A stretch of DNA of 64,000 nt, taken from positions 4,402,001 to 4,466,000 of the forward strand of contig NZ_CP007139.1 in NCBI RefSeq assembly GCF_000724625.1, written 5' to 3'. Shown piece after piece: positions 42,570 to 47,795 of this stretch. Numbering within the stretch: the first letter of the stretch is position 1; the number at the start of each line of letters is the position of its first letter. Origin of the DNA: Fimbriimonas ginsengisoli Gsoil 348. Lineage in GTDB: Bacteria; Armatimonadota; Fimbriimonadia; Fimbriimonadales; Fimbriimonadaceae. Under the pieces are notes generated by a model. The model did not search any database. It saw nothing but the letters and a program-made list of their open reading frames with translations, and had not been told where the DNA came from. The translations under genes were made by a program, and so were the position numbers.

Positions 42570-42998
42570 TTATTCGTCTGCCGGCGCCGAGCGGCGAAGT
42601 TGAGGAAAGCGGGCGAAGTCGGCGTCGAAGGTTACGAACAAACCGTCTTGATCGATGGCAAGTGCCGCGAGCATAACGTCGCTTACGCCCTTTCCAAGCA
42701 CCCCAGATTCCATTAGACTTTCGAACACGCCCCAAAACCTCTTGCTTGGTGCAATCGAGGTCGCAGATGGAGCTGACCGGAGAGTCTCGATGTAGTTGAG
42801 GGCATCCTGCACCTTGGCCGGAGGTTTGAATATTCGCGGGTCAGTTGAAATTCGGACTACCGATACGAGAACTGGCTCCCATAGAGCCACGGGCTCCGAT
42901 CCCTGGAGCACCCTTGTAAGCCACCGGCTTGCAACTTCGTAGTCGGCCATGCCCGGAGACATCGCTTGGAGAAGAACGTTGACGTCCGGGAAGATCAT
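42570..42998 (-). CDS. PIN-domain toxin, VapC family
   Basis: 142-aa PIN-domain ribonuclease. The acidic metal site: Asp5 in MIFPDVNVLLQAM, Glu41 in ALWEPVLVSVVR, Asp about 106 in GVSDVMLAALAI, and Asp about 124 in FVTFDADFARF. The C-terminal half has the family 'FDADFARF' strand. Such toxins cleave tRNA or rRNA and are neutralised by a co-encoded antitoxin. The start overlaps the stop of the upstream antitoxin by 4 nt (ATGA). Both acidic motifs look intact. Confidence 0.85.
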   Translation of the reverse strand: MIFPDVNVLLQAMSPGMADYEVASRWLTRVLQGSEPVALWEPVLVSVVRISTDPRIFKPPAKVQDALNYIETLRSAPSATSIAPSKRFWGVFESLMESGVLGKGVSDVMLAALAIDQDGLFVTFDADFARFPQLRRSAPADE

Positions 42999-43279
42999 CG
43001 GACTTTATTGATGTCCCCGTGTTCGTCCAACTCCAACCGGTCGAGGTAGTCGAGCACTTCGCTAGTTTTGTGGATATTGACGTTGGTGGGTAATACGCAC
43101 TTACCCATCTGGACAGACGGCAACTCAAACTTTTCTGACCGCACGCTGGGTCCGGTTAGGTAAGTGCGGGCAGCTTCCGCAACCACGTCCGAGATCGACG
43201 AGCGGCTCTCGGCGGCTCGTAGCCGGATTCGGTCGTAGAGCGATTCCTCGATCATCAACGTCGTCTTCTTTTTCGCCAC
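42995..43279 (-). CDS. ribbon-helix-helix antitoxin, VapB-type
   Basis: I choose GTG at 43279, giving MAKKKTTLMIEESLYDRIRL and 94 residues. The frame continues upstream through the palindrome (ATG at 43300 gives MACHNYGV), which would be coding in a perfectly symmetric control region. KTTLMIEESLYDRIRLRAAE then SRSSISDVVAEAARTYLTG is a ribbon-helix-helix. The C-terminus (SVQMGKCVLPTNVNIHKTSE) would bind the toxin. CATAAT lies 6 nt before the GTG, and the 36-bp palindrome over the start is a likely autoregulatory operator. Confidence 0.78.
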   Translation of the reverse strand: MAKKKTTLMIEESLYDRIRLRAAESRSSISDVVAEAARTYLTGPSVRSEKFELPSVQMGKCVLPTNVNIHKTSEVLDYLDRLELDEHGDINKVR

Positions 43280-43312
43280 GCCGTAATTATGGCATGCCAT
43301 AATTACGGCGTG
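43277..43312. promoter_or_regulatory. perfect 36-bp palindrome over two divergent starts
   Basis: CACGCCGTAATTATGGCA (43277-43294) and TGCCATAATTACGGCGTG (43295-43312) are exact reverse complements. The ends are the GTG start codons of vapB (minus) and the NifS-like gene (plus). CATAAT occurs once per strand, 6 nt before each GTG, so two leaderless promoters share one dyad. A ribbon-helix-helix antitoxin bound here could shut both. Confidence 0.85.
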
Positions 43313-44374
43313 TGGGAACGTTATTTCGACAACGCAGCTACGACCCCCGTCGATCCCCGCGTGCTTGACGAGATGCTTCCCTACCTGCGCGACGATTTCG
43401 GTAACGCCAATTCGATCCATGGATTCGGTCAGCGAGCTATGGCGGCGGTCGACCTGGCGCGAGAGCGTGTCAGCAACTTGATTGGTGCAGAGGACCCTGG
43501 CCAAATCGTCTTTACCTCCGGCGCCACGGAGGCGAATAACTGGGTAATTTCCGCCTTCTCCAACGGGGCAATCTCACCATTCGAGCACAGCGCCGTTCGC
43601 GAACCTGCCCTCCGTAAGGGCATGAAGCTGCTTGCCAACGATGATTTCGTTTTGTTTCCTCCTACCGAAACCCTCGAATTGATTTCGGTGATGTGCGTGA
43701 ACAACGAGATCGGAACGACTTGGAACGCGGCCGACTTCCGATCCTATGCCACCCACATTCACAGCGACATGACCCAGCAACTGGGTAAGACGCCGATTCT
43801 CCTCGACGGCATCGACTACGCCTCGTTCAGCAGCCATAAAGCCTATGGCCCAAAGGGGGTTGGCGCCCTCTACTTCGAAACGGCCCCTCCTTACCCATTT
43901 CAAATCGGCGGCGAACAAGAGCACGGCTATCGGGCAGGCACCCTAAACGTGCCGGGCATCGTGGGCTTCGGCGCGGCGTGTGCGATCGCGGCAGATGAAC
44001 AGGAACAGAATTTTCACCATGCGGCGCGGCTTCGCTCCGTCCTGTTGGAGGAACTGGGGAACGGCGGTCGGTGGCAAATCAACGGCGAAGGGGCTCCCGG
44101 CGTGCCCCACATCCTGAGCATCTCGTTTGACGGCATCGAAGGCGAGACCTTGGTGGTAGAAGCCGACCAAGCGGGGTTCGCGATTAGCGCGGGAGCTGCT
44201 TGTAGCTCCCGGTCGACGGAACCAAGCCATGTGCTCACGGCGTTAGGCTTTGAGGAATCTCGGCTAAGGGGAACAGTCAGAATTTCCTTCGGTAAATTCA
44301 ATTCTGTGGACTCTGTAACCGAACTTGCCAAAACGTTGAGGCATTCCGTAGAAAAGCTTCGTAGAATGATGTAG
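43310..44374 (+). CDS. cysteine desulfurase family protein (NifS/IscS-like)
   Basis: PLP-dependent enzyme, 354 aa from GTG 43310 (MWERYFDNAATTPVDPRVLD). An ATG at 43289 would add seven residues that are encoded by the palindrome. Motifs: IVFTSGATEANNWVI, SSHKAYGPKGVGALYF (PLP lysine, about 190), GGEQEHGYRAGTLNVPGIVG, and GAACSSRSTEPSHVLTALG, whose Cys (about 305) is the sulfur carrier. The catalytic loop is of the IscS/NifS type. The gene shares its control region with vapBC, which is unusual. Possible sulfur donor for MnmA, MiaB or iron-sulfur assembly. Confidence 0.85.
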   Translation: MWERYFDNAATTPVDPRVLDEMLPYLRDDFGNANSIHGFGQRAMAAVDLARERVSNLIGAEDPGQIVFTSGATEANNWVISAFSNGAISPFEHSAVREPALRKGMKLLANDDFVLFPPTETLELISVMCVNNEIGTTWNAADFRSYATHIHSDMTQQLGKTPILLDGIDYASFSSHKAYGPKGVGALYFETAPPYPFQIGGEQEHGYRAGTLNVPGIVGFGAACAIAADEQEQNFHHAARLRSVLLEELGNGGRWQINGEGAPGVPHILSISFDGIEGETLVVEADQAGFAISAGAACSSRSTEPSHVLTALGFEESRLRGTVRISFGKFNSVDSVTELAKTLRHSVEKLRRMM

Positions 44375-45770: not shown

Positions 45771-46013
45771 ACGTTTCCCTTCTCCGGGTGGCGATCCGGC
45801 CTATCGGTCGAAAATCTGAAATCTTTAGGAGGATTCTCGATAACTAACTCGGTTAAGTAAAAAATCCTGTTAGTTTAACTAGCTACCTAAAGGGGGACAA
45901 ACTGCCTAGCTTGTCCAAACCGATAATAAGAACGGGTCTGTAACCGAACCGTCGATCCGTTCGATTTATCCCCTTGAGAATTTATGGAGCTTCAAATTCG
46001 GAGAGAATTTTCA

Positions 46014-47744
46014 ATGGTGAGAATGCCCGCCGCACGTTTGGCTTGCCTCGTCGTCGCTTTCGGATGCGCCGGTGCGGCCTCCGCCCAGTCCGCAACCACT
46101 GACTCGGTTATCGCGAAGGCGCTAAACGGACAGCGTCCGGGGCGGATTAACGTAATCGTTAAAGCTGGCCACGAGCTCACGGCCAAGGAAGAGGCGGCGA
46201 TTCGCCGGCTAGGCGGGTATGTCTATCGCCACTTAACCGTGATCGACTCCTCCGCCGTTTCCATCCCTCACCGCAAACTCCGGAAGCTCGTCTCCCTGCC
46301 GTTCGTGAAGCATGTCTCGTCCGACGAAACCGTTCGGAAGAACGATCTGTTCACCGTCGGATCGACCTACGCGAGCACGGCATGGACTAAGTACGGCGCC
46401 AACGGAGCCGGTGTCGGAGTGGCGGTGCTCGATAGCGGAATTGCCGCAAGCAACGACTTCAACGGATCGGCCGGCAGCCGGATATCGGCTGCCGTGAACT
46501 TCTCTACCGAAACCGGCCCGTACGACATGTACGGTCACGGCACTCACGTCGCGGGAATCATTGCCGGTAACGGCGCCAATTCTTCCGGACCCGGGGCGTT
46601 CCAAACCTACTTCGGAATCGCACCCCAATCCGGGCTGGTGAATGTCCGCGTGCTCGACTCAGTCGGCAACGGTTCGGTTAGCCAGGTCTGCGCGGGCATC
46701 CAGTGGGTGATTAACCAGCGGACGAAATACAACATCCGGGTGATGAATCTTTCGTTGGGCCATGCGGTCGGCGAGAGCTACCTTACCGACCCCCTTTGTC
46801 AAGCACTGGAGCGAGCTTGGAAAAGCGGGATCGTGGTCGTATGTGCCGCCGGTAATCGGGGACGGTTGCACGAAACGCCCACCGACGGCGACGCGAACGA
46901 AGGTTACGGCACGGGCTACGGGACAATCGACTCGCCGGGGAACGATCCTTACGTCATCACGGTGGGCGCTACGAAGTCGATCGACGGTAACCGGGCCAAC
47001 GATCAGATTGCGACCTATTCGAGTCGCGGTCCAACCCGGCTCGACTTCATTGCCAAGCCGGACATCGTCGCTCCGGGCAACCGGATCGTATCCGTCTTAG
47101 CGAATGGTGGATCGATCGATCAAGCATTTGGCGATATCGTCGACGTCCCTTGGACGAGCTACACGACCCAGGCGCCCGCCGATTACACGCCGCGATACAT
47201 GCAGATGTCGGGGACCTCGATGGCGACGCCGGTCGTCGCCGGCGCCGCCGCCCTAATGCTTCAGCGCGACCCAACCTTATCGCCCGATACGGTTAAAGCA
47301 AGGCTGATGGCCAGCGCTACCAAGTGGGCTTTCCCCGATGGCCAAGGAAGCATCGTAACATTCGGCGCGGGCTACCTCGACATCGTTGGGGCTCTCAAGA
47401 GTAGCGTCGTCGCTACCAAATCCGCCAAGAGCCCCTATCTGGTTTGGTCTCCATCGGGAACCATCAATATCGTGACCGACCCCGATTTCTGGGGAACCGG
47501 TTTGAATGGAATCGTAAACGGAATCCTCGACCTTCTACTCAACCCGACTTACCGCGGCGACCGCGCCATGTGGGGCGATAGCGCCATCGGCAGCCCTCGG
47601 GCGATGTGGGGAGACGGCGTCGGCCCCATCGCTTCGGATCGAGCCCTCTGGGGAGAGCGAGCGATGTGGGGCGACACAACGACAACCGACCAACCCGTGG
47701 CTAGCGCCGGAGTCGGACCAACAATGTTGAAAGGAGATAAGTAA
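46014..47744 (+). CDS. secreted subtilisin-like protease with RAMWGD repeats
   Basis: 576-aa S8 peptidase. ATG 46014 has GGAGAG 8 nt upstream; an in-frame ATG at 45984 is poorer. Signal peptide (MVRMPAARLACLVVAFGCAG then AASAQ), inhibitor-I9-like propeptide (about 40-105), catalytic Asp140 (VAVLDSGIA), His175 (YGHGTHVAGIIAG), Asn in VVCAAGN, and Ser402 (QMSGTSMATPVVAG). After about residue 510 comes a tail with RGDRAMWGD, SPRAMWGD, SDRALWGE and RAMWGD, four copies of one short motif. The tail may be a sorting or processing signal; I know no defined role. A 16-codon ORF starts directly after the stop. Confidence 0.9.
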   Translation: MVRMPAARLACLVVAFGCAGAASAQSATTDSVIAKALNGQRPGRINVIVKAGHELTAKEEAAIRRLGGYVYRHLTVIDSSAVSIPHRKLRKLVSLPFVKHVSSDETVRKNDLFTVGSTYASTAWTKYGANGAGVGVAVLDSGIAASNDFNGSAGSRISAAVNFSTETGPYDMYGHGTHVAGIIAGNGANSSGPGAFQTYFGIAPQSGLVNVRVLDSVGNGSVSQVCAGIQWVINQRTKYNIRVMNLSLGHAVGESYLTDPLCQALERAWKSGIVVVCAAGNRGRLHETPTDGDANEGYGTGYGTIDSPGNDPYVITVGATKSIDGNRANDQIATYSSRGPTRLDFIAKPDIVAPGNRIVSVLANGGSIDQAFGDIVDVPWTSYTTQAPADYTPRYMQMSGTSMATPVVAGAAALMLQRDPTLSPDTVKARLMASATKWAFPDGQGSIVTFGAGYLDIVGALKSSVVATKSAKSPYLVWSPSGTINIVTDPDFWGTGLNGIVNGILDLLLNPTYRGDRAMWGDSAIGSPRAMWGDGVGPIASDRALWGERAMWGDTTTTDQPVASAGVGPTMLKGDK

Positions 47745-47795
47745 TTGTTTAAAGCGTTATTTCGAATCCTATGGGGAGATCTGTTTGGCTGCTAA
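47745..47795 (+). CDS. 16-aa micro-ORF directly behind the subtilase
   Basis: TTG at 47745 follows the TAA stop of the protease with no gap. AAAGGAG (47730-47736), inside the last protease codons, sits 8 nt before it, the best-placed ribosome-binding site in this gene pair. The product would be MFKALFRILWGDLFGC, hydrophobic and basic with a C-terminal cysteine. It shares LWGD with the RAMWGD/RALWGE repeats of the protease tail. It is in frame with the protease, so read-through would append it instead. It could be a peptide signal or a remnant of the repeat tail. Not proven coding. Confidence 0.4.
   Translation: MFKALFRILWGDLFGC

Follow-up and report, generated by a model that had tools for sequence, protein, structure and literature searches.

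The DNA analysed here, called the window throughout, is a 64,000-nucleotide stretch (C1:4402001-4466000) of the one-contig, 5,231,762-base genome of Fimbriimonas ginsengisoli Gsoil 348. It encodes an S8 subtilase (PF00082, E 2.9e-52; Peptidase_S8 domain with a D/H/S triad) that consists of a signal peptide, an I9-like prodomain, a catalytic domain and a disordered WG-repeat tail, followed by a 16-codon micro-ORF (Table 1). The positions of both frames and of the Shine-Dalgarno sequence between them are exactly those given in a preliminary description of this DNA. Upstream is a gene for a sigma-70-type sigma factor, downstream one for an alanine racemase, and the unit has no MASE9 neighbour. 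Elsewhere in the window, a PIN-domain protein and the small partner that overlaps it upstream resemble a VapBC toxin-antitoxin pair.

Table 1. Coordinates of the features at the window locus and at related loci
Feature	Position	Strand	Remarks
S8 subtilase frame	46014..47744	+	ATG start; longer ATG start possible at 45984
Subtilase stop TAA	47742-47744	+	
WG-repeat tail	47562..47675	+	RAMWGD, RAMWGD, RALWGE, RAMWGD; 103 distinct closed proteases, counting that of the window, have a tail of this kind
Protease C-terminal x-G-[ED] region	47721-47741		bases double as micro-ORF Shine-Dalgarno
Shine-Dalgarno AAAGGAG	47730..47736	+	within final protease codons, 8 nt before TTG
Micro-ORF, 16 codons	47745..47795	+	WG peptide MFKALFRILWGDLFGC; TTG 47745-47747 abuts protease TAA
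Micro-ORF stop TAA	47793-47795	+	
PIN-domain protein	42570-43504	-	small overlapping upstream partner
Paralog micro-ORF	G000:C1:1057302-1057349		TAAGGAAATG..., MNLFMRMVRRIIWGE; own ATG, purine-rich Shine-Dalgarno
MASE9 protein of F. ginsengisoli	L296:6934-9438		835 aa
Stand-alone MASE9	L226 4508-5200; L173 4533-5228; L193 4605-5306; L202 3305-4000; others		Acidobacteriota
Sigma-54 activator-PilZ fusion	L198 5255-6583; L195 15-2342; L335 1544-3022		adjoins peptide/protease unit
Peptide loci, Acidobacteriota	L185, L195, L198, L209, L212, L217, L226, L229, L241, L245, L326, L327, L329, L330, L331, L332, L335, L337		two peptides at L198

The protease and the micro-ORF of the window

The catalytic residues of the window protease (D140, H175 and S402) are invariant in alignments of 14 and 41 rows. 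In the AF2 model, the tail (residues 499-576) has a pLDDT below 50, as would be expected for an array of short linear motifs, and the rest models as a pro-subtilisin, the closest PDB matches being pro-subtilisins. A folded repeat domain in the tail was considered and dropped, because the modelled tail has no confident structure. At the C-terminus of almost every WG-tail subtilase is a conserved x-G-[ED], frequently in the form [AI]-[IV]-x-G-E, with 0-3 further residues, and the glycine of this ending is invariant in two alignments. In some of these proteases (L040/G119 and L066/G210) the WG hexapeptide is repeated ~10-30 times almost perfectly, and one contig can carry proteases in tandem.

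The Shine-Dalgarno sequence of the micro-ORF is uncommon for its surroundings. In the window, matches of at least six letters accompany 27 of 4,758 start-like codons (0.57%). Among the 48 non-overlapping ORFs of at least 150 aa, two have such a match even with any ATG or GTG in the first quarter allowed as the start, and 27 have none of at least four letters, so the earlier statement that most neighbouring genes lack a Shine-Dalgarno sequence holds. The micro-ORF is very probably a real small gene, which, judging from its sequence, would be translated in F. ginsengisoli.

The window micro-ORF is in phase with the protease frame and carries on the LWGD of the tail. Its TTG start, its terminal cysteine and its LFGC extension are unique among the peptides that we found, and its tryptophan is seventh from the C-terminus. 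The preliminary description proposed to check conservation of the TTG and pointed to the cysteine; the TTG is not conserved, and an importance of the cysteine is not supported. By eye, the window peptide has no classical signal peptide.

Related peptides in Armatimonadota and Acidobacteriota

The sole close paralog of the protease in the genome (L002, 56% identity) carries RAMWG[DT] repeats, and after it, too, comes a micro-ORF, directly 3' of which is a terminator-like hairpin with a T-run. This micro-ORF is in a different frame from its protease, and therefore read-through cannot make it. The pattern R-I-x-W-G occurs at nine sites in the 5.23 Mb genome, two of which lie in the micro-ORFs that follow this protease and its paralog. 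A third case is found in another genus of the same family (G134), where a protease with WGS repeats precedes an out-of-frame MKTTSPPKTGMIIRPRIIWGS. The micro-ORF at L050/L086 is out of the protease frame and has its own ATG and Shine-Dalgarno sequence; together with the paralog it argues against read-through of the TAA, raised earlier, as a general mechanism.

With a tail search and a profile search we surveyed 291 Armatimonadota genomes, and 31 proved to encode close relatives of the protease. Among 32 distinct closed proteases, a micro-ORF directly follows at the window copy, L002 and L050. A doubtful version, MHHKICVSPKARPRILWDGGPAHRG after the protease of L073, has WDG in place of WGD and was excluded from the counts. 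The preliminary description expected a micro-ORF always to follow, and named a frame that is interrupted or not conserved in close relatives as evidence against its reading; this is seen in part, as two relatives from the family, G135 and G136, have the protease but no micro-ORF. Three genomes (G099, G100 and G101) encode ORFs of 64-91 aa that end ~270-390 nt downstream in HRVIWGN or YHVLWGV. The two short Armatimonadota peptides other than that of the window stop one residue after WG. None of the three short peptides has a clear signal peptide by eye, which leaves their export unexplained.

The comparison covered one genome per species. Same-genus relatives have no ortholog above ~37% identity. 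A single-protein contig search with the window protease gave no matches; the profile search did find relatives. The pattern R-I-x-W-G-x-stop had 24 matches in 85 family genomes, with no gene-like context seen beyond the two known micro-ORFs.

A profile scan of GTDB retrieved mostly Acidobacteriota among the best 80 of 445 confirmed loci. In this phylum we identified 19 small peptides at 18 loci, almost all ending in ASAVWG[SNA] and all 19 stopping one residue after WG. In most WG peptides the tryptophan is third from the C-terminus. Most have signal-peptide-like N-termini, and the adjacent subtilases have disordered, motif-repeating tails. The peptides have N-terminal regions of their own, and they either end up to ~340 nt after the protease or precede it (MKRFKKVSLVVLLLSAMVAGLSLLSAASAVWGN and MSSRVKKVALTVVLAAVAVAGISFSSQQFKHVVGILASAVWGA are examples). 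L245 and L329 encode an identical peptide, the L226 peptide ends in NAVWGD, and the ORF at L185 is longer, its start being uncertain. In the short class, an AxA-type site (ASA) is apparent by eye before VWG[SN]. A processed, secreted peptide, as proposed earlier, thus fits the Acidobacteriota members, but the window peptide lacks these features. An NCBIfam scan of four Acidobacteriota peptides returned no families, although peptides this short may escape HMMs.

The occurrence of these ORFs exceeds chance. Within 500 nt on each side of the 103 distinct closed WG-tail proteases, a set that includes L241, which was fetched by the peptide pattern, the coding strand has 14 small ORFs ending in [hydrophobic]WGx, or 13 without one that is a tandem protease's own tail, and the antisense strand has none. 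The expectation from 200 Markov shuffles is a mean of 0.65 and a maximum of 4. The LFGC end of the window peptide keeps it out of this count. No WG-ended peptide lies within 500 nt of most of the 103 proteases, and the peptide is an optional partner of WG-tail proteases.

In 42 genomes selected because they encode the protease, ASAVWGx-stop had 11 matches, compared with three for the reversed control, and 10 of the 11 have a subtilase no more than 1.5 kb away. Among 249 genomes belonging to a single order, 16 yielded a total of 18 matches, compared with three for the control. Five of these were already known, beside subtilases, and the other 13 comprise 12 new loci and L250. Of the 13, all examined, eight combine an ATG with S or N as the residue before the stop, and each of these adjoins a subtilase; the remaining five have neither these features nor a subtilase. 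In contrast, of the 10 matches in 396 genomes sampled across the whole phylum to which G291 belongs, only the two in G291 are known to be real; the other eight are L246-L253, from which L250 was examined.

The peptide genes of the relatives are under coding selection. Seventeen were read and 12 were compared within two classes, and every one of the 31 pairs (21 from the longer class, 10 from the shorter) has a pN/pS below 1, ranging from 0.10 to 0.72 as uncorrected values, many from pairs near saturation. The last six residues of a peptide are close to the repeat unit of the adjacent tail. The residue three positions before the tryptophan is the tail's commonest or tied-commonest in 15 of the 17 peptides with a readable tail, L073 among them; it is R in Armatimonadota and S in Acidobacteriota (exceptions are L096 and L226), so that the agreement is in effect mostly one contrast between two phyla. 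The micro-ORF therefore behaves like a gene that recurs beside related proteases, and the echo of the RAMWGD tail in its LWGD, already pointed out in the preliminary description, is what relatives conserve.

Genomic linkage to MASE9 proteins

The peptide belongs to a wider association, missed in the preliminary description, that also takes in MASE9 receptors and c-di-GMP enzymes. Among the proteins encoded next to WG-tail proteases are MASE9/HD/GAF/GGDEF proteins, a MASE9 hybrid kinase and sigma-54 activators that carry a PilZ domain. Using small models built from protease loci, we found MASE9 near the protease at 41 of 80 loci (37 of 76 without the four model seeds), compared with none of 40 random stretches from the genomes of the Acidobacteriota loci. 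Across Armatimonadota, MASE9 occurs in 44 of 291 genomes: 25 of 31 that encode the protease and 19 of 260 that do not (Fisher 8e-19). MASE9 frames of at least 530 aa, a cut-off set after the table was seen, occur in 24 of 31 and one of 260, respectively (Fisher 8e-28); both values overstate independence because genomes and loci are kin by descent. The F. ginsengisoli genome has a single MASE9 match, a MASE9-HD_5-GAF-GGDEF protein directly upstream of the paralog protease (PF20972, 37 bits against a curated cut-off of 24.3).

Several Acidobacteriota loci have a stand-alone MASE9 of ~230-260 aa, without an output domain, directly 3' of the WG-tail subtilase, as if it were a membrane anchor or partner. 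At other loci a fusion of a sigma-54 activator with PilZ adjoins the peptide/protease unit, and is possibly a c-di-GMP-controlled regulator of it.

Where a genome lacks the protease, no WG repeat is seen within ~1.5 kb of its MASE9 proteins of ~300-500 aa. WG is therefore not the ligand of all MASE9 domains, and a universal WG ligand was rejected on these grounds. Ten genomes of one genus (G178-G187; L297-L301, L303-L306 and L321) encode MASE9 proteins of ~440-510 aa with no close WG protease, and the ligand of these shorter proteins must differ.

The MASE9 fold is predicted to be ECF S-component-like. The model, which is of the Acidobacteriota stand-alone MASE9 of L226 and not of the F. ginsengisoli protein, has a pLDDT of 91.6 and aligns with the ECF S-components 4m5b (VIA Z 17.1, 188 aligned, 3.0 A) and RibU (VIA Z 14.3, 165 aligned, 3.4 A), although the best Foldseek E is only 0.016. 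S-components bind small, often aromatic ligands from outside, and an indole-containing motif is therefore reasonable as a MASE9 ligand.

A possible signalling role for the WG peptide

Taking the recurrence of the gene, the motif shared with the tail and the linkage to MASE9, all read from sequence, together with the predicted tail disorder and MASE9 fold, we infer a function to which we give about an even chance: the micro-ORF peptide may be a free, one-copy mimic of the protease tail that acts on a MASE9 receptor controlling c-di-GMP. The micro-ORF encodes a free single copy of [R/S]-x-[ILV]-W-G-[D/E/S/N], the hexapeptide repeated in the tail of the preceding protease. The WG-tail proteases have MASE9 membrane receptors as their partners, most of them fused either to HD-GYP, GAF and GGDEF or to a histidine kinase. 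In this reading MASE9 would bind the Trp-Gly motif. The many-copy tail could then hold or present the protease at the receptor. The one-copy peptide would be exported and trimmed, presumably by signal peptidase in Acidobacteriota, and could serve as a competing or signalling ligand that shifts receptor output and thereby c-di-GMP. The window peptide would act on the MASE9 receptor encoded at the paralog locus; without a MASE9 neighbour, the window copy would work in trans or be a diverging duplicate. More tentatively, and with a rather lower probability, WG peptides could be extracellular signals read by c-di-GMP-setting MASE9 proteins, the tail repeat tethering or delivering the protease, with the cell comparing free and protease-bound hexapeptide.

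The peptide could instead act on the protease, as a tail-mimicking substrate, a competitive inhibitor or an assembly factor for maturation or self-cleavage. We consider this unlikely, if far from negligible: the peptide is tightly paired with the protease and copies its tail, and in the window the two occur without a MASE9 neighbour, but the MASE9 linkage of the same proteases would be left unexplained and the tail is predicted to be disordered, apart from the catalytic domain. That the frame is a functionless remnant, either an old piece of the tail past a stop or frameshift or the residues added by TAA read-through, is improbable. The in-phase window frame that extends the LWGD of the tail, the short Armatimonadota peptides without a signal peptide and the many relatives in which the frame is missing would all suit a remnant. 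The frames at the paralog and L050/L086, with their own start signals and out of phase, would not, nor would the Acidobacteriota peptides with their own N-terminal regions lying away from or before the protease, their pN/pS values, or the complete absence of such ORFs from the antisense strand.

The position of the tryptophan, third from the C-terminus in most WG peptides, recalls a ComX-like pheromone with an isoprenylated tryptophan, and ComX of B. subtilis 168 itself ends in WGD. According to PMC5331326, the modified tryptophan of ComX is third or fourth from the C-terminus. A pheromone of this type is nevertheless very improbable here, given that a Pfam scan of neighbours at a sample of loci found no ComQ-like isoprenyl transferase or other prenyl transferase, that the tryptophan of the window peptide is seventh from the end, and that the linked receptors are MASE9 proteins. 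The WG unit shares with ComQXPA a small ribosomal peptide, a tryptophan near the C-terminus and a membrane receptor. It differs in including a subtilase with a repeat tail, in its MASE9 receptors with HD-GYP/GGDEF and in a peptide that copies the repeat of another protein.

Other known systems share single elements with the WG unit. In Phr/PapR-type signalling a peptide and a subtilisin-type protease belong to one pathway, but those peptides, which are matured by subtilisin-like proteases and act in the cytoplasm, copy no protease tail, unlike the WG peptide. LapD-LapG also ties a membrane c-di-GMP protein genetically to an exported protease. That system is defined by a LapG-type protease and a LapD receptor with HAMP-GGDEF-EAL, whereas here the protease is a PF00082 S8 subtilase with a repeat tail, the membrane protein is MASE9-HD-GAF-GGDEF, and a free peptide is added. 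Receptors with an S-component fold are known, such as the 5TMR sensor kinases, and resemble MASE9 proteins in fusing an ECF S-component-like membrane domain to GAF, GGDEF or kinase outputs (PMC11109136). MASE9 differs in being tied to a protease and a peptide, and it is not named in the main text of that paper.

The WG peptides are apparently a small family that has so far gone undescribed. Neither library searches nor the open-access literature yielded a description of this peptide, of the protease tail or of any ligand for MASE9, and none of the families tested pairs a repeat-tail protease with one free repeat; for these reasons we regard the pairing as new, although its function could still prove to be ordinary pheromone signalling. 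The association of peptide, protease and MASE9 hints at a new kind of bacterial signalling. If the proposed role is correct, it would provide a candidate ligand for MASE9, a sensor domain without a described ligand in the literature searched, and the signalling peptide would be a detached copy of the protease's own tail repeat. It would also connect c-di-GMP with the secreted proteolysis of Acidobacteriota and Armatimonadota. The case shows as well that a gene of 16 codons is recognisable across phyla from its motif and context.
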